Of a stretch of 40,906 bases of DNA, positions 121-28,240 are shown in pieces. The notes under the pieces are model-generated. The model was given only the letters and a program-made list of their open reading frames with translations. It was not told where the DNA came from and did no database searches. The stretch comes from a virus. Position 1 is the first letter of the stretch, and each line of letters begins with the position of its first letter. The stretch covers positions 1 to 40,906 of the IMG/VR virus record IMGVR_UViG_3300033145_001122; one strand, written 5' to 3'. The translations under genes and the position numbers were made by a program.

Positions 121-585
121 ATGAAAAAACTGTTATTTACAATTTGTACTTTCTGTACAATCTGTACAGTCGTATCGGCTGCGGAATTCGATAATCGTGG
201 TATATGGCACGCTATAGATGATACAGATTCTCTTGCACACGGTGTACGTACATCATCTGGGATAATAGATGTATCAGACCGCGAAGATGAATTAAATGTT
301 ATTGTGACTGGTGCTACGCCCAATGATGATTCGCTTGTGGTGACACTTGAAATTTACGGGCTTGCCACACCGAATTTAGCAGACACATCCAATGCGGTTT
401 TAATACATAATACGAGTATAAATGAGGATGGCGGCGGTTATGCTTTTGCTGATACATTAAGTGGTGATGAAATGTATCCATATTTATGGATTAAACTCAC
501 AAACGATGACAGTGATGAATCATTTTTACCCGATGTGTATCTGTATATGAAACAGAAAGAAATTACCATTTTACAGAGGAGATAA
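121..585 (+). CDS. Secreted or decoration-type virion-region protein with signal peptide
   Basis: I chose the ATG at 121 over the one at 97 because 97 lies in the hairpin loop and 121 begins a classical signal peptide: MKK, a hydrophobic stretch, then VSA-AEF. The mature part of about 130 residues is acidic and beta-rich in character, with a DDSLVVTLEIYG segment that recurs loosely (DDSLIITIDG) in the protein at 1670-2158. It sits directly after the capsid gene, where head decoration or head-tail completion proteins are common. I do not recognise the family. The signal peptide is unexpected for a cytoplasmically assembled virion protein and is shared by five further genes downstream. Confidence 0.7.
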   Translation: MKKLLFTICTFCTICTVVSAAEFDNRGIWHAIDDTDSLAHGVRTSSGIIDVSDREDELNVIVTGATPNDDSLVVTLEIYGLATPNLADTSNAVLIHNTSINEDGGGYAFADTLSGDEMYPYLWIKLTNDDSDESFLPDVYLYMKQKEITILQRR

Positions 586-589
586 TAAG

Positions 590-880
590 ATGCCAGAAAG
601 AATCAAAGTAACAGAACAAAAACTCGTTGTAGTTGAAGCTTGTGGTACTCGTAAAGCTATAGGCGAGACGGTTTTCGAGCCGATGGAAGGTTTTATCGGC
701 GATTGTGCAGAAATGGACAAAGAAGAAGCCGAAATCCTTATACGAGGTGAAGCACTTACCGAGAAATATAAGGAAAAATTACGTCATCTGAAGAAAGGCG
801 AAACCATTAGCCCGGATGAACAGCATGGTAAACATGTAAATTTCCGATATGCACGCAAGAAAAAGGTGGGCGTTAAATAA
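590..880 (+). CDS. Small conserved head-tail region protein, unknown
   Basis: A 96-residue soluble protein, charged and with a lysine-rich C-terminus. It has a good Shine-Dalgarno (AGAGGAGA) upstream and its TAA overlaps the next ATG (TAATG), so the two are probably translationally coupled. Its place between the capsid-proximal gene and the head-tail adaptor suggests a connector-region role, but no motif proves it. It has no signal peptide, unlike its upstream neighbour. Confidence 0.65.
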   Translation: MPERIKVTEQKLVVVEACGTRKAIGETVFEPMEGFIGDCAEMDKEEAEILIRGEALTEKYKEKLRHLKKGETISPDEQHGKHVNFRYARKKKVGVK

Positions 881-1545
881 TGTCTGTAGTTGATGGATTT
901 ACAGGTGCAGAATTAGTAACTGCGGTTGCTGAATTACTCGGTCCCGACCCGAGCAAAACAGACGTTCAAAAACAAATATTGAGATACATTGAGTATGCAC
1001 AGCTAAAAATATTTAATTTTCACGATTGGCCTGAGCTTATTGTGTCCGATTGTTCTTTTGATACCGATGGAAGCGATAGTTACGATTTAACCGATGCCGA
1101 CAATTATATAGGCGCTACATTTGGCAGGATAGCACATGATACGATGCGTATCGGGACAAAGTTCCTCACGGAAGCATCAAGACCGGCTATGGTTTATAAC
1201 GATCCCTCTTATGTTAGTGGTGGATCAGTATCTCACTACTGCCTTTTGAGCCGCAAAAAACTGTTTCTATATCCTATAGGTGCATCGAACGGCGATACGG
1301 TAAAATTTGATTATGTGAAAATACCAACAGCGATTACCTACGATTCTACGGCTGCGGAAAATTCTTTCGAGCCGTGGAACCATCAATTAATCATCGAAGG
1401 TGCCCTGTGGCCGGGTATGAGAAAGTACGGCAAACCCGACTGGATGAAACAAAAAATGTTTTTCTATCAATTACTTAAGGAATACAAAACAAGGTCAAAA
1501 ACAATAAAACGGGGTTCGCAATTTATAAAACCCATTTCATTCTAA
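880..1545 (+). CDS. Head-tail adaptor (P22 gp4 / T7 gp11-like)
   Basis: A 221-residue protein whose N-terminal half has the helical pattern of podoviral adaptors. After about residue 25 comes a helix ending in ILRYIEYAQLKIFNFHDWPEL, matching the usual 'A-x-x-x-I-x-x-x-x-DWP-L' signature of tail-completion proteins. The C-terminal half has beta strands and a basic tail. Such proteins form a ring under the portal to which the tail nozzle binds, and the nozzle-like gene follows at 2158. Family assignment is by pattern recognition. No signal peptide. Confidence 0.65.
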   Translation: MSVVDGFTGAELVTAVAELLGPDPSKTDVQKQILRYIEYAQLKIFNFHDWPELIVSDCSFDTDGSDSYDLTDADNYIGATFGRIAHDTMRIGTKFLTEASRPAMVYNDPSYVSGGSVSHYCLLSRKKLFLYPIGASNGDTVKFDYVKIPTAITYDSTAAENSFEPWNHQLIIEGALWPGMRKYGKPDWMKQKMFFYQLLKEYKTRSKTIKRGSQFIKPISF

Positions 1546-1669
1546 AAAGAGGGTTTTGACTTGAGGAAATCAAGTCTTAATTGATTGAATCGGAAGGATA
1601 ACACTAATTCTTAAATGTAATTACCTATCCGTCCGGTTTCTTAAAAACAAAGAAGGAGATGAAAAACAA
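1546..1669 (+). promoter_or_regulatory. Structured leader with two hairpins
   Basis: GACTTGA (1558-1564) and TCAAGTC (1570-1576) form a hairpin with a GGAAA loop. Downstream, CGGAAGGATA (1591-1600) pairs with TATCCGTCCG (1626-1635) with one mismatch. Then comes GGTTTCTTAAA (1635-1645) and a strong SD (GAAGGAGAT) before the ATG at 1670. The first hairpin and the GGTTTCTTAAA block recur together at 20739-20776 ahead of the metallophosphoesterase gene. No sigma70-like promoter is obvious. Confidence 0.55.
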
Positions 1670-2158
1670 ATGAAACGAATAATTTTAGGTAGTGTTTTCT
1701 TAACACTGATGATTGCTCTTGCTATCTATACATCTCAACCAACAGATGTTGAGGCATGGACCGGATGGTGGGGAGGTAAAGAGGTGCCAGTATTGAAAGC
1801 TGTCGCAGATACTACTTCTTTAACGACCTTTACCGATGTAGTTGACGCGCACGGCCCCGGTATAATTTATCGTATTGTATTTAATAACGATGCCACACAT
1901 GATGATTCTCTCATAATTACTATTGATGGCATTAAAGACACTGTGTCGGTGGCTGATAATGAGGAACGGTCGGCTTTTGTAGTATTACGTGATGGTGTTG
2001 CGAATCATACGGGAGTAGTTGATTTATTAGATGTAGCTGATTCTACATCAACCATGATTGATTTAAATATACCATTTCAAAATCAATTTCTTGTGGAGCA
2101 AAATTGTGAAGATGGGGGTTTGTCAAGTTGTACCGTTATCTATGGGGTTTTTGAATAG
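1670..2158 (+). CDS. Signal-peptide protein, virion region, unknown
   Basis: A 162-residue protein beginning MKRIILG with a long hydrophobic segment to about residue 20 and a likely cleavage near VEA-WTG (about residue 29). The mature part is short, acidic and threonine/serine-rich, with DDSLIITIDG resembling DDSLVVTLEIYG in the gene at 121-585, so the two may be distant paralogues. The start is well supported by GAAGGAGAT. Its stop TAG overlaps the GTG start of the nozzle gene. Function unknown; a surface or decoration role is only an inference. Confidence 0.7.
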   Translation: MKRIILGSVFLTLMIALAIYTSQPTDVEAWTGWWGGKEVPVLKAVADTTSLTTFTDVVDAHGPGIIYRIVFNNDATHDDSLIITIDGIKDTVSVADNEERSAFVVLRDGVANHTGVVDLLDVADSTSTMIDLNIPFQNQFLVEQNCEDGGLSSCTVIYGVFE

Positions 2159-3723
2159 TGAAGCAATTTATAAGTTTAATATTAATTCTGCTTTTCTGTA
2201 ATTACGGTTATACTGCGGAAAACTGGGGTATAATTGATATTCCAGATTTCTCGGGTGGGCTTAATACACGTGATAATGCGGGTGGTATCGCCGATAACGA
2301 ATTACAGGAAAGTTTCAACTGTTACTTGCTTGCTAACGGTGTTGTAAAAAGACAGGGGTATGAAAGTTATAATGATAGTGCCCGTATCAATTCCGCAAAT
2401 GAGGGTACGGGCATCATATCTGCACCTTTTATAACCGGTGGCACAAAAATAGTAGGTACGGCAGGGACAAAAATAGCCTATAAGGGTACTAACGAATGGA
2501 TTGATATAACCGGTTCGGTAACACTCACGACTGATAAACCGATGCTCTTTACGATGATTAACAATAATCTCGTGGGTGTAAACGGTACAAATCCTGCATG
2601 GTACTGGTCGGGTTCTGGTAATGCGGTGACATTTTCGGGAAAGAATATTCCCACTGCACCGGCGACATGCGAGACGTTTCACGGGAGATTATTTTTATCG
2701 CAGGGCAGACGGCTATACTGGTCTGGATACATGGGCAAATGGAAGGAATTCCACCCCGATGATTATCAAGATGTCGAAGGCACTATAACGGGATTAAAAG
2801 TATACGGCGATATTAACGAATCCAACCTGATTATTTTTACTAATAATAGTATACATAGATGTGTTTTTGAACCATCGATAGGTGCGAACGTAGGCGGTCG
2901 TGGAGTATTCCGATTTAATACAATCAGCGAAAAACACGGATGTATATCACAGTTCTCCATTCAGGAATGTCTTACAACAGAAGGTGCAATTGCTCTTATA
3001 TGGGCTGATAATGACGGATTGAAAGCACTATACGGTGATACGGTTGTAAAACTCACCGATAAAATACAACCCGACTGGGATAATCTGAATATTGACGATT
3101 TAAACGAATCAGTCGGAATACACTATAAGCCGAAAAGATGGTATTTACTTTCGTGTTCGAGGGGAAGAAGTACAACAAATAACCGTATTATAGTATTTGA
3201 CCTCCGTAACTGGGTTGTTGCAGGATATTTCGACTGGCAGATAAGTGCTTTTGGTATAGTACGTGACGACGGTGTTGATAAACTTATCGGCTCTGATTAT
3301 TCAGGATACTGGAATACATACGACAGCGGTAATAGTGACTGCGGAAGCGGTATCGATGCGTATTTTTCAACTAAATCCTTTGACGGTAATGAGCCGTTTA
3401 TTGATAAGGGTTTTTCGGCATGCTTGTTACAACACACGTATTACGGTGAATATAATTTAGATATAAAAGCATATTACGATTATGCAACAGATTCTTACAG
3501 TACATCCTATACGGTGGAAGCAATCGGGACTAAATTAGGTGTTTTTCTGTTAGGCACGGATAAACTTATCGGTACAGGAGGTCTTGTTACAAAAGCGGCA
3601 GAAATAAAAGGACGTGGCAAGAATATTTATGTAAGAATATCAAACTCCGATGCAGATGAGCCATTCAAGATTTATGGTATGAAAATAATTTACAGCCGGG
3701 GAAGGATGGTGTTAGCAAAATAA
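2158..3723 (+). CDS. Tail nozzle / DNA-stabilisation protein (P22 gp10 / T7 gp12-like) with signal peptide
   Basis: A 521-residue protein starting at GTG 2158, overlapping the previous stop. After a short hydrophobic leader ending near YTA-ENW comes IPDFSGGLNTRDNAGGIADNE, then NGVVKRQGYE, the hallmark N-terminus of podoviral nozzle or packaged-DNA stabilisation proteins. The rest is rich in beta strands, as expected for a propeller-like nozzle. Position after the adaptor and before fibre-like genes agrees. The leader is strange: nozzle proteins normally assemble in the cytoplasm, and the homologous motif normally lies at the extreme N-terminus. The stop overlaps the next ATG (TAATG). Confidence 0.75.
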   Translation: MKQFISLILILLFCNYGYTAENWGIIDIPDFSGGLNTRDNAGGIADNELQESFNCYLLANGVVKRQGYESYNDSARINSANEGTGIISAPFITGGTKIVGTAGTKIAYKGTNEWIDITGSVTLTTDKPMLFTMINNNLVGVNGTNPAWYWSGSGNAVTFSGKNIPTAPATCETFHGRLFLSQGRRLYWSGYMGKWKEFHPDDYQDVEGTITGLKVYGDINESNLIIFTNNSIHRCVFEPSIGANVGGRGVFRFNTISEKHGCISQFSIQECLTTEGAIALIWADNDGLKALYGDTVVKLTDKIQPDWDNLNIDDLNESVGIHYKPKRWYLLSCSRGRSTTNNRIIVFDLRNWVVAGYFDWQISAFGIVRDDGVDKLIGSDYSGYWNTYDSGNSDCGSGIDAYFSTKSFDGNEPFIDKGFSACLLQHTYYGEYNLDIKAYYDYATDSYSTSYTVEAIGTKLGVFLLGTDKLIGTGGLVTKAAEIKGRGKNIYVRISNSDADEPFKIYGMKIIYSRGRMVLAK

Positions 3724-4469
3724 TGAAAAAAATATTAATGGTTCTGTGTTTACTTACAATAGCTGCTTTCCCTGTCTGGGGATATGACAGCGATTTAAAA
3801 GAATGGGGAGAGGAAATATTAGAACCAGAAGATTTAAACGATGCTTTTTCTGATGTTGCTATTGTTGATGATATGGCAGATTCGTTATTCTTAAGGGTAC
3901 TAAAAACTTCGGTGGCAGATTCGATAAATGCAATAGTTACAGATTCACTGGCATTGTCGGTATTGAAAGTAGATGTGGCAGATTCGATAAATGCACGTAT
4001 GCAAACAAGCTTTCCACTTTTCTATACCGGAGCGTTCGTAGATTCCACCGCAGAAAATGACAGTTTAACGATAGAGATAACAGAGAATTCCCCATTAGGA
4101 ACGAAACAATCTCTTTTCATACTGAATAATGCAGGAGAAAAAGAAACTGTAACATTGGTTTTAGATGGATTTTTATGGAATAAAATAGGGGTTTTAGACT
4201 CTTTGCATTATTACATCTGGACAGAAACAACCGATAAAACGGATTTTGTTTCGACAACCGTATATCAGGATTCATTAGACACTCATTTCAAGGGTACAGC
4301 TTCTGCTTCCGTTGACAGCTCATGTAGTTCAACGGCACGAACGGCAAAGATAGTTTCGGTAACAGATATTGATATTACAGACGATGAATTCAGAGTAAAA
4401 CTTTTAGTAGAGACACAAAGCGATTCAATGTTTATAGGTGAGATAAAATGTTTTATAAGTTCTCCATAA
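3723..4469 (+). CDS. Signal-peptide protein with ADSINA/DSLALSVLK repeats, tail region
   Basis: A 248-residue protein with a textbook signal peptide (MKKILMVLCLLTIAAFPVWG). Residues about 45-95 contain a 21-residue repeat: ADSLFLRVLK, ADSINAIVTDSLALSVLK and ADSINARM, with 21 identical bases at 3912-3932 and 3975-3995. Such regular hydrophobic spacing often makes trimeric stalks in fibres. The C-terminal 150 residues look like a beta-sandwich. Likely a fibre or fibre-associated protein; this is inference from position and architecture. It overlaps the next gene by 22 bases. Confidence 0.65.
   Translation: MKKILMVLCLLTIAAFPVWGYDSDLKEWGEEILEPEDLNDAFSDVAIVDDMADSLFLRVLKTSVADSINAIVTDSLALSVLKVDVADSINARMQTSFPLFYTGAFVDSTAENDSLTIEITENSPLGTKQSLFILNNAGEKETVTLVLDGFLWNKIGVLDSLHYYIWTETTDKTDFVSTTVYQDSLDTHFKGTASASVDSSCSSTARTAKIVSVTDIDITDDEFRVKLLVETQSDSMFIGEIKCFISSP
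3912..3995 (+). repeat. 21-base direct repeat at 63-base period inside CDS
   Basis: Bases 3912-3932 (GTGGCAGATTCG...) recur exactly at 3975-3995, a spacing of 63 bases or 21 codons. The repeat is in frame and reflects a duplicated coiled-stalk unit in the encoded protein. Confidence 0.8.
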
Positions 4470-5779
4470 AAAATATAAAGTTACGAACGATATTTATTAT
4501 AGATGTAATACTTTTAATTGCTCTGTTTTTTGCACTGCGAAATTCACATGCACAGGAACTATCAATAAACAAAAAACAGACGGCATTGAAAGTAAACGAA
4601 AAACTAATTGTGAATGAGAATACAGAGGTAGAGAAACTTGACAAAAAGGGTAATTTCAGGGCAAAAGTGTATTCAGCGCCTAAATTCCATTTCGACAAAA
4701 TGAGCGGTGAATATATTCCCGTTAAACTCTCGGAGAAAAGAGAAATTGCGGGCGCTGATACATTTTCTTACGGCAATTTTTACGTGATTTACGAGCCTCT
4801 TTTCAGCCTCAAAAACATTGTAATTTATAACCAGAAATCAATAATAAGAACCAAAGAAGATATAGTATTAAAAAACAGTAATGCCCCCACAATACTAACA
4901 TGGCGGATAAGAACAAATGCGGATATAGAATTTAATAATGGTGAATTAATATATACTTTTAATAAAGGAGAATTTTTATTCAAAACATTACGTCCGAATG
5001 CAATAGATAATAAAAACAATGATATCCCCGTAGAGGTGAGTTTAGATAAGGATATATTAACATATAAATTAGATGTGACAGAAATAAGGTCATATCCCGT
5101 GATAATTGACCCGACAACAACTGCGCAGGCGGAAAATGATGGAACACTAAGGCGAACGAGTGCGGCCGATTGGGCAACTGCACGAGACAATACTACTTCT
5201 AACGATAAACGAACAGATCAGTTACAGATTGAAGCTGATTATACAGGTTCAGCCTATAATTGCGGTAGAGGTTTCCTGTCCTTTCCCATACCAGCAGTGA
5301 CAAGTTGTGCTGCTGGTACGCTATATGTAAGGGGAAATTATGATCATGGTGTCGATATGGAGATATATTTGTTGACATCAACATATGACATTAGTTTACC
5401 GTCAAGCGCATATAACGATTTCGATGGATGGACTTCTGGTTCTGCTCATACGGGAACTGTTCTTAATGCTACATGGACAGATGCTAATTTTGTGACTGGT
5501 TGGAATACCTTTATTTTCAATACAGATGGGAAAAATGCCGTTGTTGCGGCATCTGAAGATACATTAAAAATAGTAATGATTTCAAAGAAAGATTATGATA
5601 GAACAACACCTACAGAAAGGGGCATGCTAATATTTGATTCCTCTGAAGATTCGGGTACAGAGCCATATTTATCAATAGTCTATAATTTAGGTGGTATAGA
5701 CAATCGGCAGAAAATATATAATTTGACAACACAATATTTATATAAACTAACAAGGGTACCTTTATGGCAACCCGATTAA
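4448..5779 (+). CDS. Receptor-binding / fibre-like protein with DNRLRE-like C-terminal domain
   Basis: A 443-residue protein with an N-terminal basic then hydrophobic segment (about residues 15-36), followed by SHAQEL, a likely export signal or anchor. The central part ends in SYPVIIDPTT, a phrase common in large secreted surface proteins just before repeat or DNRLRE modules. Residues about 235-420 resemble a DNRLRE-type beta-sandwich, with RGFLSFPIP, then GWNTFIFN and a final EPYLSIVYN. The best guess is a tail-tip or receptor-binding protein, as it lies between nozzle and ejection genes. Enzymatic activity is not evident. Confidence 0.6.
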   Translation: MFYKFSIKNIKLRTIFIIDVILLIALFFALRNSHAQELSINKKQTALKVNEKLIVNENTEVEKLDKKGNFRAKVYSAPKFHFDKMSGEYIPVKLSEKREIAGADTFSYGNFYVIYEPLFSLKNIVIYNQKSIIRTKEDIVLKNSNAPTILTWRIRTNADIEFNNGELIYTFNKGEFLFKTLRPNAIDNKNNDIPVEVSLDKDILTYKLDVTEIRSYPVIIDPTTTAQAENDGTLRRTSAADWATARDNTTSNDKRTDQLQIEADYTGSAYNCGRGFLSFPIPAVTSCAAGTLYVRGNYDHGVDMEIYLLTSTYDISLPSSAYNDFDGWTSGSAHTGTVLNATWTDANFVTGWNTFIFNTDGKNAVVAASEDTLKIVMISKKDYDRTTPTERGMLIFDSSEDSGTEPYLSIVYNLGGIDNRQKIYNLTTQYLYKLTRVPLWQPD

Positions 5780-5839
5780 AAATAAGGCAGAGGGCATAAG
5801 GGATAAGAATTAATCATATACAAATACACGGAGGATAAG

Positions 5840-6643
5840 ATGAAAAAGGGATTATTGATTTTATTAGGGGTATTGATGTTTGCGGCAAATGTATTTTCTG
5901 CTACCGCACCCACCATAACAAAAACAGATAGTACGAGTTCGACCATTACGTTTTCTATCAGTCCGAGTGATTCTTCATATTACCCCGATTCGTTAGTTAT
6001 AGTTATGTCGGCAACGGCAGACGACTCGTCTGGAGGTGCATCGGGAAATGATTTAGAGCAGATTGTAACTCTCGGCTCAAGTTCTGTTGTTGTTTTAGGG
6101 TTGCAGGCAAATTATACATATTATGCCATTGCAAGAGTAGACAGTGCGGGCAATAAAGCATATTCAAACAGAGATACCACGACCACAGAATTAATTAATT
6201 TGGAGAATGACTGGGGCAGAGTTGTCAATTTGAACGAAAAGGGCAAACTCATGTACCGTGCCGACTCATGGAGGGATGATGATTTAATTTACGATTCCAT
6301 TACATTAGTTGGTGAAGATGATTCTGACAGCACAATATGGTACAATGCAGCACCGTTTATGAGCATAAACGGATATGCGTGGGGAGATGCCGACTCGGTT
6401 AAATTTACAATACTAACGTATGCGGGCTATCCTCTTAAAGATGAGGATAATTATTGGTATACGGTAATAGATTCAACTCAAGTAACAAAACCAGGGCCTT
6501 TTTTTACGGGAGATATTAACACAGAGTCTAATGGATGGTTTATGATAAAGGCAACTGCCGATGCGGACTGCGATCCCGATGTTGCGGGCGATTCTACTTA
6601 TTTTAAACTACGCCTTAACCGCAGTTTAACAGGGGGGAGATAA
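5840..6643 (+). CDS. Signal-peptide protein with fibronectin type III-like domain
   Basis: A 267-residue protein with a strong SD (GGAGGATAAG) and a clear signal peptide (MKKGLLILLGVLMFAANVFSA). Residues about 22-115 have the fibronectin type III rhythm: APTITKTDSTSSTITFSIS, then LQANYTYYAIARVDSAGNKAYS. The remainder contains more beta-rich sequence. Fn3-like domains are frequent in phage tail and decoration proteins and may bind cell-surface glycans. It is the last of six signal-peptide genes in this block. Confidence 0.7.
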   Translation: MKKGLLILLGVLMFAANVFSATAPTITKTDSTSSTITFSISPSDSSYYPDSLVIVMSATADDSSGGASGNDLEQIVTLGSSSVVVLGLQANYTYYAIARVDSAGNKAYSNRDTTTTELINLENDWGRVVNLNEKGKLMYRADSWRDDDLIYDSITLVGEDDSDSTIWYNAAPFMSINGYAWGDADSVKFTILTYAGYPLKDEDNYWYTVIDSTQVTKPGPFFTGDINTESNGWFMIKATADADCDPDVAGDSTYFKLRLNRSLTGGR

Positions 6644-6645
6644 AA

Positions 6646-7194
6646 ATGCCATTTACTGTAGAAGATATGTTGGAACCTGCCACAGATGGAAATGGTGGTG
6701 GAGGTAAGTCTCCCTGGGTTTCACTGATTGAATTACTTGCCGCTATGTTGCCTGCCGGTGCCGGTGCTGTAATCGGTAAATATATAGACGATGTAAACGA
6801 AAGGAATGCGTATACAGGGAAAGAGGCCGTGAGTGATGCGCAGGGCAGATATACCGGCATGGAAAACCGCCTTGATACTGCCTTGAGGGGGGAAACAATA
6901 AGTCCGCAATTACAGAGAGCCCGCAGCCAGGCAGGGGCAACTATTAACCGTCCCATAACTTCTCCGACACCATATAATCCCTATAAAAGTGGTTTCAGGC
7001 TTGAAGACCCCGTAATGCTGACGAATTTATTGCAAATGGCAAGAGGAGGTAATCCATTAATACAGCAAAATAGAAATATACTCCAGAACTCACTTATGAA
7101 TAGATTCGGGACACGCTCTATGAGACGGGGCAATGTACCCGGCACACTCACACCATACGGACAAAAGACGGCAACGGGTATGGGGAGGCGATAA
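6646..7194 (+). CDS. Small ejection-type internal virion protein (T7 gp14-like by position)
   Basis: A 182-residue protein with GGGGGAGATAAAA as ribosome site. It has one hydrophobic, glycine/alanine-rich segment near residues 25-45 (LIELLAAMLPAGAGAVIGKY), then a polar, arginine- and glutamine-rich tail. It is the first of three genes of increasing size before the lysis cassette, as in the ejection modules of podoviruses (small membrane protein, then two large ones). There is no cleavable signal peptide. Assignment is positional. Confidence 0.5.
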   Translation: MPFTVEDMLEPATDGNGGGGKSPWVSLIELLAAMLPAGAGAVIGKYIDDVNERNAYTGKEAVSDAQGRYTGMENRLDTALRGETISPQLQRARSQAGATINRPITSPTPYNPYKSGFRLEDPVMLTNLLQMARGGNPLIQQNRNILQNSLMNRFGTRSMRRGNVPGTLTPYGQKTATGMGRR

Positions 7195-7196
7195 AT

Positions 7197-9569
7197 ATGG
7201 CTCTATTATATGACGATAAAACGGGGCAATATTATGATTCTAATAAAAAAAATAGAACTACGCAGCATAATGTTTTGCCTCCTGCTTATAGACCAGAACT
7301 TTTTGACCCCAATGCCCCCGGGATGACACCCGAATTAGTGGAAAGCAGAAGAAATTTTTTGGCTCAACAATGGGGTGTATTACCAGAAGATATACCACGT
7401 TATAATCAACCGGTTACTCCTTCTGTAGATTATGGGCTTGACCCGTGGTCACCGGGATATGTACCGCAACAGCAAGGCAATAATCAACTGTCTCCACCGG
7501 GGACAATACCGTTACCTCCGGGTGAACCCTATACATATTCACCACCTCCGGTAATACCTCAACGCGAACCTGTATATAATCAACCACCGCCGGTAATACG
7601 GGCTGAACCCGGTCCACCCCCACCGGGAGTGAATTATCCAGAGCCTCCGGTAATACCTTATGGAACTCCTCCGCCTGCACCTGAACCGACTCCCGTCATA
7701 GCTCCCACACAACAGTATGATCCCTATGCGGGATACTATGATATGCTGATGGCAGCATTAGGGGGTATTGGACAAAATGTACAGGGAACGTATGAGCCGT
7801 TTCAAACCTCAACCTCAACAACGGAGCTTGGACAGGCACTTCAGGACAGGGCAATGCAGATGCTTAATCGTCCTTACGGATACACGCCTGAAGAAGAAGC
7901 CTTGATATATAAAAACGCACTTAATCAGTTTAATATAAACCGTGAAGAAGATTTACGTTTACTCGAAGGTATGGGTGAACAGTACGGATGGAATATAAAC
8001 GACCTTGAATTAGGCGGCCAGGGTCGCAGTATGTATCAAGATTACTTAGGGAAACGTGCAATCGCCGAATCGGGACTTATCGGAGATATAGCCCAGCAAA
8101 TAATAAATAAACGCACAGAAGATGAAGCCCGTGCGGTCAGTCAAGCACAATCTATTGAAAGCCTATTGTACGGCGAATACGCTCAGGATTTCAATAATAT
8201 GCTTTCTCTGATGGATTTTGACAGACTTGAAGATGCACAGCGATTTGATCAGGTAATGCGGGCTTATGGATTAATGACAGACGTAAAACAACAAGACTTT
8301 ATGAACCAATTAGGTCTCAGTGACCGTGAAATAGATGCTTACTGGAAACAAAGGTCTTATGAGGATACTATGGCGCTTACGGATAGAGATTACTGGCAGG
8401 GTGCAGCAGGAACGACACCAGCGGATTTACTTAATGCACTCTCATGGGCAGGATCGACAGCCGGTAATGTAGAGGCTCGTGCAATAGAAGACCCGACAAG
8501 TGCGATGCTACCGCTGATTATGATGGGGTTGGGAATGGGAAAGGATGGCGGAAATATAAATATTGAGGGTCAGGATATGTCATGGGTTGAAAAACTATTA
8601 AATCTAATACCGGGTGTTGATATAGGAGATGGTGAAGATGGTGAATGGTGGAAACCCGATTTTTCATGGGTAGACCCAAGTGGCAAGTTAAAAATACCAC
8701 CGTTATCGCTTGATTTTCTTAAATCAATGTTTGGGGATTTTGATATATCGAATCCGCTTTCATGGAGTCCCAATATGATAAATTTCATGACTAAAGGGTT
8801 GCCCGCAGGAGCTACATTCAGATACGGAGAAAAAGAATACACAATAGGTGCAGACGGCAGGGTTGTTAAACCTGAAGAAGGAATCCCTGAAGGAACCCCT
8901 GAAGGAGAAATCCCGGATTTTGTAAAATTTGTCGGTGATTTTGCTGCCGTATATGGTGCTTATCGTCTTGTGAAAGATACACTTAAAAGTCGTGGATGGT
9001 GGTTTGGCGGTGATGAACCAAATAGTGTTGATAAAAATAGTGCCCCATACGCTGTTTATAAATTCCTTAGCTTGAATGATCCTAAAAGAGCAACAAATTA
9101 TTTTGGCAATTTCAATAATTTTGAGCTGATTGCATTATTTAAAACTCTACAAGATGGTGATTTATCATATAAGGATGAAAATGGCAAAATTAGAAAACTC
9201 GACCCAATAACCCTTGATAAAACAGAGTTGAATGAATTTAAGATAAAGGGTTATGGTTATGCGTGGGAAAATGCCGGTGAAATATTAAATAGGGTTTTAG
9301 AAATTATACCCGATAAAAATTCTTCTGGAGAAGAATGGGTAAAGTTTATAAGCGATAGCTATTTTGTCAGTTCGATGAGAAATGAATACGTATCAAGTTT
9401 TGGTGATACAATGCAGACACCCGATGTGTTTTTACCACCCATGAGCTATGATAAGGCAGTAAAATTGTTAACACAACTGGCTGATTATGGTAAGATAACA
9501 CAGAAACAAAAAGAACTGGCAATAGCCGAGTTAAAAACAGATAAAGATATTCACCCGTGGCGATATTAA
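7197..9569 (+). CDS. Large proline-rich internal virion / ejection protein
   Basis: A 790-residue protein. Residues about 85-185 are a proline-rich linker with repeated PPVIP-type units (PPVIPQREP, PPPVIRAEP, EPPVIPYG). Residues about 200-420 are mostly helical and glutamine-rich. A glycine/methionine hydrophobic patch (MLPLIMMGLGMG) lies near residue 440, and the C-terminal third is mixed. It follows the small ejection-like gene by 2 bases. No enzymatic motif is visible. A role in the ejected trans-envelope channel is inferred from size, order and composition. Confidence 0.55.
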   Translation: MALLYDDKTGQYYDSNKKNRTTQHNVLPPAYRPELFDPNAPGMTPELVESRRNFLAQQWGVLPEDIPRYNQPVTPSVDYGLDPWSPGYVPQQQGNNQLSPPGTIPLPPGEPYTYSPPPVIPQREPVYNQPPPVIRAEPGPPPPGVNYPEPPVIPYGTPPPAPEPTPVIAPTQQYDPYAGYYDMLMAALGGIGQNVQGTYEPFQTSTSTTELGQALQDRAMQMLNRPYGYTPEEEALIYKNALNQFNINREEDLRLLEGMGEQYGWNINDLELGGQGRSMYQDYLGKRAIAESGLIGDIAQQIINKRTEDEARAVSQAQSIESLLYGEYAQDFNNMLSLMDFDRLEDAQRFDQVMRAYGLMTDVKQQDFMNQLGLSDREIDAYWKQRSYEDTMALTDRDYWQGAAGTTPADLLNALSWAGSTAGNVEARAIEDPTSAMLPLIMMGLGMGKDGGNINIEGQDMSWVEKLLNLIPGVDIGDGEDGEWWKPDFSWVDPSGKLKIPPLSLDFLKSMFGDFDISNPLSWSPNMINFMTKGLPAGATFRYGEKEYTIGADGRVVKPEEGIPEGTPEGEIPDFVKFVGDFAAVYGAYRLVKDTLKSRGWWFGGDEPNSVDKNSAPYAVYKFLSLNDPKRATNYFGNFNNFELIALFKTLQDGDLSYKDENGKIRKLDPITLDKTELNEFKIKGYGYAWENAGEILNRVLEIIPDKNSSGEEWVKFISDSYFVSSMRNEYVSSFGDTMQTPDVFLPPMSYDKAVKLLTQLADYGKITQKQKELAIAELKTDKDIHPWRY

Positions 9570-9588
9570 TATAAGGTGGTGAGCTAAT

Positions 9589-10428
9589 ATGCCGAATTTT
9601 AGAGGTGCAGGAGATTTATTTACACAGGCTTTCTTTACGCTTATGAAAGATAAACAGCGCAGAGAAGCCGAACAGCGTGAAGCACAGAGGAGACAAAAAG
9701 AGCTTCAGCAAACAATGAGATACGAGACAGAACGGGAACGTATTAAAAGAGAACAGGAGCTTGCCGATATAAAAAGCGGAAGAGAATTTGAGAGAGAAAC
9801 GCAGGAGAGAGGTTGGAAAAGAGGAGATATTCTTGCGGAACAAGAGTCCACTGAAGCCCAGCGTCTTATTGATGAAGAATATGAATATCTTAAACAATAT
9901 TCTTTACAAAAAGGTTATAAATTGCCAGAACCTCCTGGTGGCAAACCAACAAAAGCGTGGTTAAAATATGCCGGGCGAGGACTTGATGATTATTTAGAAG
10001 AAATAAATGCTGAAGGGGAGATGGAAGAATATCAAAGAAAATATGATATCCAACACCCCCAAAAAGTACCTACTGATACTAATGAAATTGAAAATATTCT
10101 CAGGGGTGAATGGGAAACAATTACAAGAACAGCCGGAATTACAGGACAAGGACGCTCATTTGAAACTATTGAGCAAGAATTTGCAAATATGATGCGAGAC
10201 CCCTATATAATGAGTTTATGGGATACTCTCGCAGATCAAAACCCAGAAGCCTATGAAAGACTAAATCGTGAATTTCTTGCTGTGCTTGGCAGAGTGAGAC
10301 AGATGAGAAAAAGTAAGGTGAATTTACAGCCTACGCCTCCAAGACCGCCAATATCACAGCAAAGATACGGAAGTGTATTACCATATACAGGCGCTGACAC
10401 CTTAAAGACTTATCCGCAAGCATGGTGA
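9589..10428 (+). CDS. Coiled-coil internal virion protein
   Basis: A 279-residue protein whose residues 20-100 form a highly charged arginine/glutamate-rich coiled coil (RREAEQREAQRRQKELQ and onward). The C-terminus is proline-rich. SD AAGGTGGTG lies upstream. It sits between the two large ejection-type genes and ends four bases before the next ATG. It is likely a structural partner of the ejection proteins; no family is recognised. Confidence 0.6.
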   Translation: MPNFRGAGDLFTQAFFTLMKDKQRREAEQREAQRRQKELQQTMRYETERERIKREQELADIKSGREFERETQERGWKRGDILAEQESTEAQRLIDEEYEYLKQYSLQKGYKLPEPPGGKPTKAWLKYAGRGLDDYLEEINAEGEMEEYQRKYDIQHPQKVPTDTNEIENILRGEWETITRTAGITGQGRSFETIEQEFANMMRDPYIMSLWDTLADQNPEAYERLNREFLAVLGRVRQMRKSKVNLQPTPPRPPISQQRYGSVLPYTGADTLKTYPQAW

Positions 10429-10432
10429 TAAT

Positions 10433-13162
10433 ATGCCTTATTACATACCAAGGTCTCAACGAGGAAGAAAAAAAAGAGATTATTTGAGAAGTTTCACCGC
10501 ATCGACCAACCTTGAAAAACAAGACCGCGCTAACCAAAGAAAAATATTAGAACTTATTGAGTCGGGTGAACTCGAAGAATTTATAAAACACAAAGAGGGT
10601 AAATCTCTTTGGGATAGAGTAAAAACCTTGGGTTCGGGTGCTCTCGATGTATTACAGAGAGGTGAATATGCTGCCGCCGGTGGACTTGAAGAAGTATGGG
10701 GTGGCGAGCCCGGTATATCTGGTAGAGAAGCAGGCGCAGCTATCGGACGCGCAGGACGTGAATTATTCAGTGGTGTGGGTGGAATACAGGGGCAAAAGAA
10801 AACTTTTGGCGATGTTATTAAAAAAAATGTACCGGAATATAAAAGATGGGCTAAAGAACATCCTGTATTGTCTACTGGAACTGACCTTGCACTGAGTATT
10901 GGACTTGATCCTACAACGTATGTAGGATTAGGGTTAATTGATGATGTTGCCCGATTGACTGGCAAGGGATTTGCCAAAACAGTCGGTAAAACGAAGATTG
11001 CCAAAGGTGCTGGTGAAGTATTGGGGCGCGCGTTCGATCCTGCATATTTATGGAAGAAAGCAAAAGCAGCAAAAGGATATGACATCCTATGGAGTGAGGG
11101 TAAATTTGCAAAAGGATTGTCCCGAAAATATCATAAAGAATTAGACCCCGCAATTGATGCTATCGCTACATGGGAACCGGAAAAAGTAAAAAATTTTGTG
11201 CGAGTAATGTACGGCGATATTCCTCTATCAAGTGTATCTGATGATGTAAAAGATACCGCATTAAACCTTAAAAGCCAACTCAAAAAAATAGGAAGGCGTG
11301 AAAGTAAATATCTCGGCAAGGGAACAGACTGGATGCTTGATAATTATCTTCCCAATAACCCCAAACAATTAACAGAATTTATGGAAGAAGCGGGTGAACA
11401 TGTTACACGGGGATATGGGCAAGGGCTTGCTGATTTCAAGAAAAGTTTTGAACATTCTAAAAAACTGATTACCGGAGAAATTTTCCTGGATTGGGCTAAA
11501 AATGTCGGTATAAGTGATGAGAATCTCGGTGAAGTAGTTGTGAAAAATCTAACCGGACGAGTAGGGCAATCAATAAGTCGTGTACGACAGATACGTATAC
11601 AACATAAATTAATTCGTGATTTGCCTGAAATATTCCGGAAATTACCGTATGGTACAAAACATGTATTTGATACAAGAAATATTGGTACGGAAGAAATCCC
11701 CAAGTGGATTACTTTGGTCAAGCCGGGAGATTCTATCTGGATGCCTGCTGGCAATTTAAGATTTTTTAAACAGGAAATAATGGCAAAAAAGGGGAATATA
11801 GCTAAAGTCTGGAAAAAAGCAGGGAAATTTGACCCTGAAGATATTGAACAATTAACAGAAATAAAAGAATTAAATAAGGCTTTGGCGGCAAAAATTGAGA
11901 ACGCCATATCTGGCGGGCTTGATTTAGTATTAACGGCAGATGAATTACAAGCTATTCAAAAAACACTTGTGGGTGTTACTACAAAAGTTACCGCTTACGC
12001 TGTTCCCAAAGAAATAGTTGAAGATATTACAAAAGTATCCAAAAGACTTGCGAGTGAAACCGATATTTTAAAATGGTGGGATGATACCTTGAATATATGG
12101 AAAAATACTGCTATACTTTCACCGTTTTTTCACATGAGAAATTTTATATCATCATCCTCTCAAAATTATCTTGCGGATATTAATCCCGCACGCTTTAAAG
12201 ACGGTTTTAGAGTATTATTACCAACAACACCGGATGGGGCAAAAATACTCGGGAGAACAAAAAAAGCGTGGAATGAATTGTTTAATAGATATGGTATTAC
12301 TGGCGGTTCATTCGTGGGGCAGCAGACAGGCAAAACTGGTATTCCCGTTGTCGAAAAGGTTTTTAAATTTAATCGATGGATCGGCGGGCATATAGAAGAA
12401 CATCAAAGAGCATCTCTCTTTATGGATGGTATTAAGAAGGGTATGAAACCTCTTGAGGCAGCGAAACGCGTTAAAAAATTTCATTTTGATTATTATGAAT
12501 TAACAGATTTTGAACGTAAAGTTGCAAAAAGATTCTTTCCTTTTTGGAGCTGGACCCGTAAGAATATACCGCTTCAGCTTGAAATGATTGTAAAAGCCCC
12601 TAAAAAATATAAATATTTGGCACAATTAAAGCGTGCTGTCATCGGTGGACCAGAAAATGAATACAATCCTGATTGGTGGAAAGAGCAAGATGTATGGGAA
12701 ACAAAAGGCGATAAAGCATGGCATGTCGGATTACCCTATACTGATTTGAATATGTTACAGGGAAGCCCTGTGGGCATGCTTGGCCCCGCAGCAACAATTT
12801 ATAATATTGCTGCCAATTATGATCCGTTTTATAAAGAAAAAATAAGCCGATATAAAGGACAAAAAGTCCCTGTTGTAACTATCGGTGATAAAACTTATGG
12901 TTTAAATCCAACGCTTAAATATGCAATAGAAGGTTTTATACCTGTCGCCCAGCGTTATGGTTTTGACCTTATTAAACAGATGCAAAATTTTTTAGGTGAA
13001 AATGACGAGCAAAAACTAAAAGCAAAATATAAAATTATTAACAAATTCATCGGTATAAAATTAATACCACAACTAAAAAGTGAGCGGGAACGAGCACGTG
13101 TTTACAGATTAAGGGACGCGTTAAGAGATTATGCTCTCTATAAAAAACAAGGTGTAGAATAA
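10433..13162 (+). CDS. Very large internal virion protein (ejection type)
   Basis: A 909-residue protein and the largest gene in the window. Its N-terminus is basic (RSQRGRKKRDY). Glycine-rich amphipathic stretches lie around residues 60-130, and long helical regions follow. The C-terminal third contains PFFHMRNFISS and FPFWSWTRKNIPLQLE, phrases I associate with large phage virion-associated proteins. No transglycosylase or protease motif is evident. It ends TAATG into the holin-like gene, so it closes the structural module. Its functional name is inferred. Confidence 0.6.
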   Translation: MPYYIPRSQRGRKKRDYLRSFTASTNLEKQDRANQRKILELIESGELEEFIKHKEGKSLWDRVKTLGSGALDVLQRGEYAAAGGLEEVWGGEPGISGREAGAAIGRAGRELFSGVGGIQGQKKTFGDVIKKNVPEYKRWAKEHPVLSTGTDLALSIGLDPTTYVGLGLIDDVARLTGKGFAKTVGKTKIAKGAGEVLGRAFDPAYLWKKAKAAKGYDILWSEGKFAKGLSRKYHKELDPAIDAIATWEPEKVKNFVRVMYGDIPLSSVSDDVKDTALNLKSQLKKIGRRESKYLGKGTDWMLDNYLPNNPKQLTEFMEEAGEHVTRGYGQGLADFKKSFEHSKKLITGEIFLDWAKNVGISDENLGEVVVKNLTGRVGQSISRVRQIRIQHKLIRDLPEIFRKLPYGTKHVFDTRNIGTEEIPKWITLVKPGDSIWMPAGNLRFFKQEIMAKKGNIAKVWKKAGKFDPEDIEQLTEIKELNKALAAKIENAISGGLDLVLTADELQAIQKTLVGVTTKVTAYAVPKEIVEDITKVSKRLASETDILKWWDDTLNIWKNTAILSPFFHMRNFISSSSQNYLADINPARFKDGFRVLLPTTPDGAKILGRTKKAWNELFNRYGITGGSFVGQQTGKTGIPVVEKVFKFNRWIGGHIEEHQRASLFMDGIKKGMKPLEAAKRVKKFHFDYYELTDFERKVAKRFFPFWSWTRKNIPLQLEMIVKAPKKYKYLAQLKRAVIGGPENEYNPDWWKEQDVWETKGDKAWHVGLPYTDLNMLQGSPVGMLGPAATIYNIAANYDPFYKEKISRYKGQKVPVVTIGDKTYGLNPTLKYAIEGFIPVAQRYGFDLIKQMQNFLGENDEQKLKAKYKIINKFIGIKLIPQLKSERERARVYRLRDALRDYALYKKQGVE

Positions 13163-13380
13163 TGACAGCTCTTGTTGTAGCATTTCAATACGGAACACCG
13201 GCATTACTATTTATATTAATTGTTTTACAGGTGTGGTCAATGACAAAGATAAAAGACCTTATTAATTCTGTTAATAATCTTAAAGAGGGTGTAATATGGA
13301 ATGACAGGTTTGGAGAATTTAAAGAAGCTATGGAGACACGTGTTAAACGCCTTGAGGATAAGGCAAATGGCAGACGATAG
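13162..13380 (+). CDS. Holin candidate, single transmembrane segment
   Basis: A 72-residue protein with one hydrophobic segment (about residues 8-26, ALVVAFQYGTPALLFILIV) followed by a charged helical tail rich in lysine, arginine and glutamate. The start overlaps the preceding stop and the end overlaps the endolysin by 14 bases. Small one-TM proteins directly before an endolysin are usually holins or related lysis proteins. Sequence alone does not prove pore formation. Confidence 0.55.
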   Translation: MTALVVAFQYGTPALLFILIVLQVWSMTKIKDLINSVNNLKEGVIWNDRFGEFKEAMETRVKRLEDKANGRR

Positions 13381-13816
13381 AATAATAGAAGCAAACTATA
13401 ATATAACAGAGCATTTTAAATACAACGATTTCAAATGTCCTTGCTGTGATATGCTAAAACTAATCCCACGTTTCTACAAACATATCGAAATGCTTGAACG
13501 AATGAGGCTTGAAGCCGGTTTCCCGATAGTGGTTAATTCGGGATACAGATGTCCAAGGCATAATGAAATTGTAGGCGGCAGACCAAAATCTCAACACCTT
13601 ATATTTGCAACAGACATAAGACCCGCTATTGAAGAACATGAACTCGATGTTATGCCGCATAAAATCCGTCAACTCTATAAAATAGCTCTTGACCTCGATT
13701 TCAATGGCATAGGACTTTATAAAAATTTTATACATTTAGATTTGCGTTCTGATAAAGCACGATGGAGAGCTCTAAATGAAAATGACAATAATAAACGGAA
13801 GAAAAATAACACTTGA
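13367..13816 (+). CDS. Endolysin, peptidase M15 family (D,D-/L,D-carboxypeptidase type)
   Basis: A 149-residue protein starting at 13367, where GAGGATAAGGC supplies an SD. It carries the M15 zinc pattern: SGYRCPRHNEIVGGRPKSQHL, then ATDI, then FIHLDLR. The expected zinc ligands H77, D83 and H123 are present. The phrase normally has a glycine (SxHxxGxAxD), replaced here by phenylalanine (SQHLIFATD), a notable departure. A CxCC cluster near residue 24 is extra. It would cleave peptidoglycan cross-link or stem peptides at lysis, paired with the upstream holin candidate. Confidence 0.85.
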   Translation: MADDRIIEANYNITEHFKYNDFKCPCCDMLKLIPRFYKHIEMLERMRLEAGFPIVVNSGYRCPRHNEIVGGRPKSQHLIFATDIRPAIEEHELDVMPHKIRQLYKIALDLDFNGIGLYKNFIHLDLRSDKARWRALNENDNNKRKKNNT

Positions 13817-14969: not shown

Positions 14970-16043
14970 TCATAGGTTGGCTATAATATCGTCCGTAACA
15001 CCAGAAGCTTTTTTAAATGCCTCATCGTGCAAGTGGGCATACCGTTGTGTCATCTGTGGAGATTTGTGGGTTAAAAGCTTCTGTAATGTATAAATATCGA
15101 CCTTGCCACTTGAAGCTAACATAGAAGCATAGGCATGGCGTAACCCGTGCATAGGTCGGAAATCCTTTGGGAGTCCGGCTTTTTCTTTTATTTGATTAAA
15201 CACATTATGATAAGAGCTTATGTCTAATTTTTTACCACGAGGCGATGCAAAAACAAATTCCGATGTTCTTTTCTGCCATGTAAGAACTTTTCTTGCAGAC
15301 ATATTCATTGGTATCAATTGGTCTTTGCCACCCTTGGGATCACGTATATTAATAAATTCATTCTCCCAGTCAATATCATCCCATCTTAATTTCAATATTT
15401 CCGACTTCCTCATGCCAGTAAATAATGCCATCTTCATTATATTTGCCACTGTTTGATTTGGTTCTTCATTCAAAACTTTAAGCAGTCTTTTTATTTCATC
15501 GTGCGACAAGCTTTCTGTTTTTACAGTGCTTATTTTCGGCATCTCAATCTTAAAATCTATATTCTTACACAATTTTCTTGAAGTGCCGTAATTGATAATT
15601 CTTTTCAAAAGCGCAAGAATAGATTTGGTAGTCCCGGGGCTTAATGTTTTTAAAAGATTGGATTTGAACCTGTCAATATCAATAGGCTCGATTTGTTCCG
15701 GTGATTTATCACCATAACGATTTCTTATATATTTATTATATCTGCTTTTATCACTCGGAATCGGGTTTTTGTTTTGTTTGTATTCATTCCAAATGCTATT
15801 TAATGTCCAGCTTACACCTCTGTTAGTAGATATGTTCCCCGTTATTTTTAAAATTCTTATTCTCGATGCCTTCGCCGGTGTCATATTATCCTGATACTGC
15901 CTGCCCGCCTTTTCTTCGATAGATTTTCCTTGTTTTCTATACATAATGTAATATATTTTTTCGGGAGTCTTGTCGGCAATTGATGTTCCGTTGATATAAT
16001 AAACACCCGGATATTTGGTTTTATTTCTCTTCATTACTGGCAT
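14970..16043 (-). CDS. int: Tyrosine recombinase integrase
   Basis: A 357-residue protein with the full catalytic set: R212 (FTGMRKSEIL), lysine near 237-240 (PKGGK), H299 and R302 (HGLRHAYASM), H326 (LTHKS) and the nucleophile Y335 (TQRYAHL). An N-terminal arm-binding region (residues 1-75) and a SAM-like core-binding domain (about 80-165) precede it. It integrates and, with the excisionase-like protein at 19091, excises the prophage. Two ATTCCCA direct repeats lie just upstream of its start. Confidence 0.93.
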   Translation of the reverse strand: MPVMKRNKTKYPGVYYINGTSIADKTPEKIYYIMYRKQGKSIEEKAGRQYQDNMTPAKASRIRILKITGNISTNRGVSWTLNSIWNEYKQNKNPIPSDKSRYNKYIRNRYGDKSPEQIEPIDIDRFKSNLLKTLSPGTTKSILALLKRIINYGTSRKLCKNIDFKIEMPKISTVKTESLSHDEIKRLLKVLNEEPNQTVANIMKMALFTGMRKSEILKLRWDDIDWENEFINIRDPKGGKDQLIPMNMSARKVLTWQKRTSEFVFASPRGKKLDISSYHNVFNQIKEKAGLPKDFRPMHGLRHAYASMLASSGKVDIYTLQKLLTHKSPQMTQRYAHLHDEAFKKASGVTDDIIANL

Positions 16044-16315: not shown

Positions 16316-16984
16316 TTATTTGAATTTGTCAAGAGAAAAAGTATAGGCAACCCCTCCACCAATGATAAATGCACCTAAATTAATATTATCATTTTCCCGC
16401 TCATATTCTATAAAAGATTTTTCAGCTTTTAAGAATATTGAGAAATTTGAATGTTGTATGGGCATTATAATATCTGCACCAATATATGGACCGGCCTTAA
16501 GTTCATTATCATGACTTTGAGTTGTATTATATTGAGGAAAAATATAATCAGAAAATGTTTTGGGTTCATATCTATATTTTAATTCATTAATTACTTTTAT
16601 TGGAGAAACAGTAAGCCCGACACGTATACCAAGAAAAGAATCGTTAATTTCTGTTTGAAGTGGTACGCGATATACTAAAAAAACGTTATAATGAGGCACA
16701 ACCCATTCTATCGATATACTATTTAGCCTATCGGATGAAATTGTTCTCGCCTCATAATTATATCCACACATTGAAGCCCCCACGCCAAGACCTGATGCTG
16801 GAGCGCCCGTTAATATGAAAAAGGGCATACCGCACGATTCTCCATTTGGAACTACTGGTGGTGAAATATCTGGGTTTTTGGGTGTTATTATATATCCACC
16901 ACCAACACCCACCATTATTTGTGCAACAGTTAAATTAGATAATAATAGAAAAAACATAATAAATATAGGCAGTAATTTTTTCAT
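16316..16984 (-). CDS. Secreted outer-membrane barrel-like protein (lysogenic conversion candidate)
   Basis: A 222-residue protein with a signal peptide (MKKLLPIFIMFFLLLSNLTVA, cleavage before QIM). The mature part alternates polar and hydrophobic residues in strand-sized units with glycine turns (MVGVGGGYII, GPYIGADIIM, GAFIIGGGVAYTF), typical of an 8-stranded outer membrane barrel. Its start overlaps the repressor stop by ATGA, so it is co-transcribed with the repressor and should be made in lysogens. Likely a surface change or superinfection exclusion factor; the precise function is unknown. Confidence 0.7.
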   Translation of the reverse strand: MKKLLPIFIMFFLLLSNLTVAQIMVGVGGGYIITPKNPDISPPVVPNGESCGMPFFILTGAPASGLGVGASMCGYNYEARTISSDRLNSISIEWVVPHYNVFLVYRVPLQTEINDSFLGIRVGLTVSPIKVINELKYRYEPKTFSDYIFPQYNTTQSHDNELKAGPYIGADIIMPIQHSNFSIFLKAEKSFIEYERENDNINLGAFIIGGGVAYTFSLDKFK

Positions 16985-17812: not shown

Positions 17813-18016
17813 ATGCCTATTCCAGGAAAAGCACTCACCGAAACCGAAATAACAAAACTCCTCAAAATTATGAGTGAAACAAAAAGAACTATCGCTGAAA
17901 CCGCAAGAAAGATGCACCTGAATTATTTCGAGCTTTATAATCCACTAAATAAAAGAACGAGATGTAGTAAAAGGGTGTACGATAAAATCAAGCGTTTTTT
18001 GAGAAGGTATAGATGA
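17813..18016 (+). CDS. Cro-sized DNA-binding protein, copy A
   Basis: A 67-residue basic protein and the first gene of the early operon. TIAETARKMHLNYFELYNPL looks like a short helix-turn-helix, and the C-terminus is strongly basic (KIKRFLRRYR). It is a paralogue of 18227-18430; the last 40 codons are almost identical at DNA level. Position next to the repressor suggests a Cro- or activator-like role; family not recognised. Confidence 0.7.
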   Translation: MPIPGKALTETEITKLLKIMSETKRTIAETARKMHLNYFELYNPLNKRTRCSKRVYDKIKRFLRRYR

Positions 18017-18226: not shown

Positions 18227-18430
18227 ATGATGCCATCTGGAAAAGTACTAACAGAACAAAAAATAATAAAATTATTCAAAATAATGAATGAAGAGAAAAT
18301 AACTGTTGGTGAAACCGCAAGAAAGATGCACCTGAATTATTTCGAGCTTTATAATCCACTAAATGAAAGAACAAGATGCAGTAAAAGGGTGTACGATAAA
18401 ATCAAGCGTTTTTTGAGGAAATATAAATAA
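18227..18430 (+). CDS. Cro-sized DNA-binding protein, copy B
   Basis: A 67-residue paralogue of the gene at 17813. The N-terminal third has diverged (MPSGKVLTEQKIIKLF against MPIPGKALTETEITKLL), while GETARKMHLNYFELYNPLNE and the basic tail are nearly unchanged. The sharp boundary between diverged and conserved halves suggests partial duplication or gene conversion. It has no strong SD and lies behind the structured element, so its expression may depend on that structure. Confidence 0.65.
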   Translation: MMPSGKVLTEQKIIKLFKIMNEEKITVGETARKMHLNYFELYNPLNERTRCSKRVYDKIKRFLRKYK

Positions 18431-27940: not shown

Positions 27941-28037
27941 AGACACTATATTCCTTGTGATTTTATTTTTCATCTGGATTATAGTTTCCCTTTTCTTGGG
28001 TATAATCTTTAATGAAACATCAACTGGGGGATGGTAA
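27933..28037 (+). CDS. Small membrane protein (34 aa)
   Basis: ATG at 27933 after GGGGGAG, encoding a nearly all-hydrophobic peptide (IFLVILFFIWIIVSLFLGII) and ending TSTGGW. It is the second small TM peptide in 300 bases. Function unknown. Confidence 0.5.
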   Translation: MNKDTIFLVILFFIWIIVSLFLGIIFNETSTGGW

Positions 28038-28039
28038 GA

Positions 28040-28240
28040 ATGAAAAGAAGTGAGTTTTTGGCGATGATATGCGGTTTGGCTGTAGCACCATTTGTTCCGA
28101 AAGAGAGAGTTATCCCAGAATATCCATTTACGATAGTTCGAGACTTTGAGGTAAAATACAAAATATGGGAAAAGCAACCACAAAAAAACTATAGTTTTGT
28201 AAAGGTAGTTCGGGAGATACAACAGGATATGATGAAGTAA
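28040..28240 (+). CDS. Small protein with MKRxEF leader, unknown
   Basis: A 66-residue protein; ATG 28040 follows GGGGGATGG. The N-terminus MKRSEFLAMICGLAVAPFVP resembles the start of the protein at 33829 (MKRIEFIKSLIGLIFAPALF), so the two share a short hydrophobic leader type. The 3' end lies in the first copy of the 90-bp repeat. Export is possible but not shown. Confidence 0.5.
   Translation: MKRSEFLAMICGLAVAPFVPKERVIPEYPFTIVRDFEVKYKIWEKQPQKNYSFVKVVREIQQDMMK

Follow-up and report, generated by a model that had tools for sequence, protein, structure and literature searches.

In the textbook account, tailed phages assemble in the cytoplasm; why, then, should a whole set of tail-region proteins of a podophage begin with what look like signal peptides for the Sec system? 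The question is raised by the virus record IMGVR_UViG_3300033145_001122 of IMG/VR, analyzed here as one stretch of 40,906 bases (hereafter the window), which is the complete record, with 114 bases identical at both ends, and belongs to a temperate podophage with a P22-like gene order. In its late block, six open reading frames (ORFs) starting at positions 121, 1670, 2158, 3723, 4448 and 5840 all encode a basic, hydrophobic leader, and those at 590 and 880 are leaderless. A reading made from the letters of this DNA alone (the sequence-only reading) had described six such proteins in a row, the tail nozzle among them; all of the ORFs and leaders are present, and the six lie in one block, although they are consecutive only when 590 and 880 are left out of the count. 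The analysis presented here suggests that outer tail parts may be exported from the cell interior before the particle is completed. The idea that tail-region proteins, the nozzle included, have Sec-type leaders gains support and becomes more general, as it extends to three sister protein families and to a class of tail fibers.

Leaders of the Late Block

All six proteins are encoded on the plus strand. Protein 1 (121-585, 154 residues, no family match) starts with MKKLLFTICTFCTICTVVSA (positions 121-180), with the predicted cut VSA-AEF, and protein 2 (1670-2158, 162 residues), directly 3' of the adaptor gene, starts with MKRIILGSVFLTLMIALAIYTSQPTDVEA followed by WTG, with ALA-IYT as an alternative cut. 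The nozzle (2158-3723, 521 residues) has the 20-residue leader MKQFISLILILLFCNYGYTA followed by ENW; protein 4 (3723-4469, 248 residues) has MKKILMVLCLLTIAAFPVWG and the cut VWG-YDS; the leader of protein 5 (4448-5779, 443 residues) ends in TIFIIDVILLIALFFALRNSHA, with the cut SHA-QEL; and protein 6 (5840-6643, 267 residues) has MKKGLLILLGVLMFAANVFSA and the cut FSA-TAP. The mature start of protein 4 carries the pattern W..EIL.PEDLN.AF, which resembles fiber N-termini and which, among the loci examined, was found elsewhere only in a leader-bearing fiber (L298).

Leaders were called with a heuristic (net positive n-region, uncharged h-region and the -3/-1 rule) that was tried on known Escherichia coli signal peptides, and the calls rest on this heuristic together with comparative data. 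Five of the six leaders pass, the nozzle being rejected solely for a Tyr at -3; correspondingly, small residues occupy -3 and -1 in five of six. A basic n-region and a hydrophobic h-region are present in all six (the hydrophobic stretch of protein 5 includes one Asp), and the stretches of proteins 5 and 2 are long, with 19-residue mean hydropathies of 2.58 and 2.16, respectively. The background is low: the heuristic is passed by 0.8% of random internal segments, by 9/421 (2.1%) of the ORFs downstream of the major capsid protein (MCP) gene in 86 relatives, several of these matches being real, and, weakly, by one of 54 virion proteins of T7, P22, epsilon15 and KLEP18-1. At the 2.1% rate, the chance of five of eight genes having a leader is about 2e-7. 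The scorer has its limit: in some nozzle homologues it gives false positives within the GGL motif; moreover, a looser ORF set from the 86 MCP relatives gave 13 forward and 11 reverse matches, so that single matches mean little and recurring families alone were used.

Shine-Dalgarno sequences are good before the leader starts of 1670 (AAGGAG), 4448 (AGGTGAG) and 5840 (GGAGG), and weak for 121, 2158 and 3723. For the first protein, a start at ATG 97 is disfavored with respect to 121, because this ATG falls within the loop of an inverted repeat with a perfect 11-bp stem (81-111; stem 81-91/101-111, 9-nt loop) between the MCP gene and the first leader gene; in the P22 record, a stem-loop is annotated at the corresponding position, following the coat gene. 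A lipoprotein identity of the six was rejected, as no lipobox was called. Domain and profile searches found no cell-wall hydrolase domain behind any of the six leaders, which sets the six apart from Sec-exported or signal-arrest-release (SAR) endolysins.

A Leader on the Tail Nozzle

The identity of protein 2158 was examined by structure prediction, using a model built from 39 sequences (mean predicted local distance difference test score, pLDDT, of 63). Its top 29 structural matches in Foldseek were all phage tail proteins, with E down to 2e-17, and include the nozzles of Pa223, VP1, SU10, P22, Sf6 and T7; the gene also lies near that of the PF24175 adaptor (880) in the late block, as expected of a podoviral nozzle. 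The predicted fold thus confirms the nozzle assignment of the sequence-only reading, and by this model the protein is a true podoviral tail nozzle with a beta-propeller fold. About 30 residues, including the leader, precede its conserved motif, compared with about 12 or fewer in homologues, and protein 2158 accordingly departs from a trait that is typical of nozzles, if not strictly defining, namely a domain at or near the N-terminus. The nozzle homologues, from public phages and more than 80 IMG/VR contigs, are all leaderless. One of them, in the record MW495066 (L003, "Microcystis phage MaAM05"), is surrounded by lepA, proS, ftsH, pgcA and a tRNA gene, and this record may be bacterial or chimeric.

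Leaderless homologues that start at the conserved domain had been named in the sequence-only reading as a finding that would speak against the leaders, and for the nozzle this is what was found. The leader nevertheless stands, because no in-frame ATG, GTG or TTG follows GTG 2158 until the conserved motif is reached; a wrong start was rejected on this ground. Since GTG 2158 is the only usable start and the homologues are leaderless, the nozzle leader is, as judged from these sequences, a translated, lineage-specific addition. It is possible that it serves the nozzle either as an uncleaved anchor or for export.

Sister Families With Conserved Cleavage Sites

Small proteins with leaders are encoded between MCP and adaptor, and again right behind the adaptor, in three of the MCP relatives (L033, L083 and L084). 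When the post-adaptor protein was used as the query, 24 contigs of this sister podophage clade were retrieved, with 50 leader-bearing ORFs on the forward strand and 3 on the reverse. These ORFs form three unrelated families within the structural block, A (pre-adaptor), B (post-adaptor) and C (about 183 residues), together with a rarer family D. An AXA-type site, where -3 and -1 are small residues, is preserved in each of the 38 leaders aligned from families A, B and C; in family A it lies one residue past the boundary column used in the alignment. Identity is about 0.5 in the leaders versus 0.74-0.82 in the mature parts, and the ratio of nonsynonymous to synonymous polymorphism (pN/pS) is 0.52-0.67 versus 0.24-0.30. 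A site that is kept while the leader around it diverges is how signal peptides evolve.

The fold of family C is TNF/C1q-like and resembles that of cyanophage tail fibers, tail-needle knobs and phage receptor-binding knobs, and the family A protein of L241 continues into a fiber-like stretch. Family D (L241, 10767-11147; L243, 4147-4527) begins with MKYKILITSCIFLLLATLAYA followed by LNS and is likewise leader-bearing and located in the structural block of the clade. Comparison of the window leader proteins with families A, B and C revealed no homology beyond the leader itself, and protein 1670 has none to the sister-clade protein at the same position. Because these families are not homologous to the window proteins, the leader feature appears from sequence comparison to have arisen more than once.

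In families A and B, cysteines come in pairs, with one exception. Two cysteines are both kept in 12 of 13 family A members (neither in the remaining one) and in 15 of 17 members of family B, where one copy has neither and another, with a damaged end, has a single one. In the window, the portal, the scaffold and four presumed internal proteins contain no cysteine at all, compared with 15 in the leader proteins past residue 25. This pattern, seen in sequence, fits disulfide formation outside the cytoplasm but does not prove it.

Leader-Bearing Tail Fibers

The leaders are also found on tail fibers. In three further MCP relatives (L078, L079 and L081), a tail fiber (phrog_863, E 5e-43) starts with MLKRILIAALWLPLIALA followed by QTYPSPTF, and a fiber of this class is encoded in Shewanella phage vB_Sb_QDWS by an ORF absent from the record annotation (L261, 14004-16067, minus strand, 687 residues, leader-bearing); the record calls other ORFs across the fiber. 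The class was found in 35 IMG/VR loci, isolate prophages included, and 33/35 score as leader-bearing, a fraction biased upward by one of the two scan patterns, which covers the cleavage region, while loci of the other pattern are also leader-bearing. Its members have a conserved cysteine pair, 17 residues apart (one of the two is part of a scan pattern). Bradyrhizobium phage ppBdUSDA122-1 likewise carries a leader on its annotated 865-residue tail fiber, and in L264 the fiber profile match starts only at profile position 249 of 690, the usual N-terminal part being missing. Judging by these sequences, leader-bearing tail fibers are a widespread class. We also note that OK094664 (vB_Sb_QDWS) and OP650936 ("Hujiaoplasma phage zrk29-1") are both listed at 47,902 with the same match and have very different named hosts; one of the two host assignments is probably wrong.

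Export, Anchoring or Display?

The leaderless late genes encode the head, the neck and the capsid interior, and the leader-bearing ones the nozzle and candidate appendages. Sec export of distal parts is the simplest reading. According to this proposal, distal tail parts (the appendages and, less certainly, the nozzle) would pass through the host Sec system, their leaders acting as signal peptides that are removed by signal peptidase I. The exported proteins would fold, and partly form disulfides, in the periplasm, whereas head, portal, adaptor and ejection proteins would remain cytoplasmic. The exported parts would then be added late to heads already filled with DNA; the simplest moment would be lysis, when the action of holin and endolysin unites the two compartments. 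Tailspikes of P22 are added last, and their addition works in vitro, which makes a late addition of outer parts plausible. Export is well supported by comparison across phages, and among the options listed in the sequence-only reading (periplasmic assembly, membrane anchoring, cleaved tags and surface display), cleavage with export would best fit the sister families; overall, its interpretation is partly supported. For the window phage, we infer that export and cleavage take place, that virions contain the mature proteins, and when and where these are joined to the heads; such steps would call for an assembly route outside those described. The mechanism as a whole, from export and cleavage to periplasmic folding and late joining, is our tentative preference, held with slightly less than even confidence.

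Several observations weigh against this proposal. The Tyr at -3 of the nozzle is unfavorable and makes its cleavage site the weakest of the six; the window leader proteins have no close relatives and are not homologous to the sister families; and the likely nozzle of the sister clade, itself recognized by a weak profile match, is leaderless. In addition, nozzles normally help to close the packaged head in P22 assembly, so a nozzle that joins late would need another plug. In the most far-reaching version, the tail is completed outside the cytoplasm: nozzle and appendages would both be exported, would mature and acquire some of their disulfide bonds in the periplasm, and would dock on packaged heads either at the membrane or upon lysis, as part of a widespread but unrecognized class of exported components. 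We regard this version as unlikely in its entirety.

The leaders might instead stay uncleaved and serve as hydrophobic anchors, either keeping tail parts at the inner membrane while the tail is assembled or entering the envelope when DNA is ejected. The long hydrophobic stretches of 4448 and 1670 would suit such a role, as would the poor cleavage site of the nozzle; nevertheless, most leaders are followed by acceptable -3/-1 residues, the AXA-type site is kept in every aligned sister leader, and the cysteine pairs fit an oxidizing compartment, which leaves anchoring a doubtful explanation for the set. The exported proteins could also act at the cell surface rather than in the virion, either as fiber-like decoys that mask receptors or exclude superinfection, or as adhesins of the lysogen or of the infected cell. 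In favor of this, the sites of the Sec leaders are conserved, TNF-like and fiber-like folds can bind surfaces, the L264 fiber is devoid of its usual N-terminal part, and the phage encodes a presumed outer-membrane protein (16316) as well. However, these genes are part of the late head-tail block, where the adaptor and nozzle genes stand among them, and it is hard to see what a nozzle would do at the cell surface; we consider this role improbable, even if for the fibers it is the main rival, in the form of receptor masking. That the leaders are chance hydrophobic N-termini, or upstream extensions of proteins starting downstream, is very improbable: the leaderless nozzle homologues and the three weak Shine-Dalgarno sequences agree with it, but the background is just 0.8-2%, the nozzle has no alternative start, three leader starts have good Shine-Dalgarno sequences, and the comparative evidence from sister families and fibers is strong.

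If Sec export of distal tail parts is correct, some virion components would be made in a different compartment, one where disulfides can form, and the last assembly steps would come late. Receptor-binding proteins would then also have to be expressed and tested differently.

Genome Context and Host

The gene order runs from TerL (34950) via portal (36592) and presumed scaffold (38603) to the MCP (39645-40865, plus strand, leaderless; phrog_334, E 1.4e-34; 29.6% identity to the KLEP18-1 MCP), and then into the late block across the join. The two leaderless genes of the block, both on the plus strand, encode a small head-tail region protein (590-880; phrog_11679, E 0.0016) and the head-tail adaptor (880-1545; PF24175 SU10_adaptor, 36.9 bits against a cut-off of 27). 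Downstream follow four presumed internal or ejection proteins without leaders (6646, 7197, 9589 and 10433; 6646-13162, plus strand), the last with a weak tail-fiber profile match, and a putative holin (13162) and endolysin (13301) (13162-13816, plus strand; one predicted membrane segment; phrog_894, E 5e-27), this endolysin being leaderless. An integrase and a presumed S24-type repressor lie further on.

Adjoining the presumed repressor, the presumed outer-membrane protein of the lysogeny region (16316-16984, minus strand, 222 residues) has a signal peptide of the same style as the late-block leaders and a C-terminus like that of an outer-membrane barrel; a Pfam search gave no match, and it is a candidate lysogenic-conversion surface protein. 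Two small proteins outside the structural block (28031-28240 and 33829-34179) have similar leader-like N-termini, MVRMKRSEFLAMICGLAVAP and MKRIEFIKSLIGLIFAP, Tat-like in look but without a twin arginine. Two closely similar 67-residue proteins (17813-18016 and 18227-18430), a few hundred bases apart, are an apparent duplication.

The host is probably a member of the Desulfobacterota, because the integrase (14970-16043, minus strand) is 45-54% identical to integrases there; the identity is 45% to the integrase of the 39.8-kb plasmid of Lawsonia intracellularis and about 50% to many others of this phylum. When nozzle, MCP and sister family B were used as queries, 395 Desulfobacterota genomes yielded no useful prophage; single-protein scans for close relatives of the window nozzle, MCP and portal found none, and the portal alignment gave no usable pattern.

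Comparison With Known Systems

Export of late phage proteins via Sec is known for endolysins, which may be exported before lysis (Lys44 of fOg44) or be of the SAR type (PMC6116005). These share a Sec signal with the window proteins, but they are lysis enzymes and not proteins of the virion block. In Bacteroides phages, signal peptides have been counted without assignment to virion parts (PMC5723332), and in the open-access literature we found no report of signal peptides on tail fibers, nozzles or virion tail proteins as a class, which is no proof of absence. Both the folds and the export signal are thus familiar, and it is their combination that has so far had no explanation.

Virion proteins can be cut at the N-terminus, as in the ejection protein gp7 of P22, from which the host protease OpdA removes 20 residues (P22 record note); that N-terminus is not flagged by the heuristic, however, and the protease is a different one. 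The nozzles P22 gp10, Sf6 gp8, T7 gp12 and those of SU10, VP1 and Pa223 resemble protein 2158 in fold, in their order after the adaptor and in an FSGGLN-type domain start, but the sequence homologues examined lack its leader. Paracoccus phage KLEP18-1 shares the synteny TerL-portal-scaffold-MCP-small proteins-adaptor-nozzle, although its structural proteins are leaderless. Further parallels are vB_Sb_QDWS and ppBdUSDA122-1: they have leaders on one or two proteins and none on a nozzle, unlike the window phage, but their tail fibers start with an AXA-type signal peptide.

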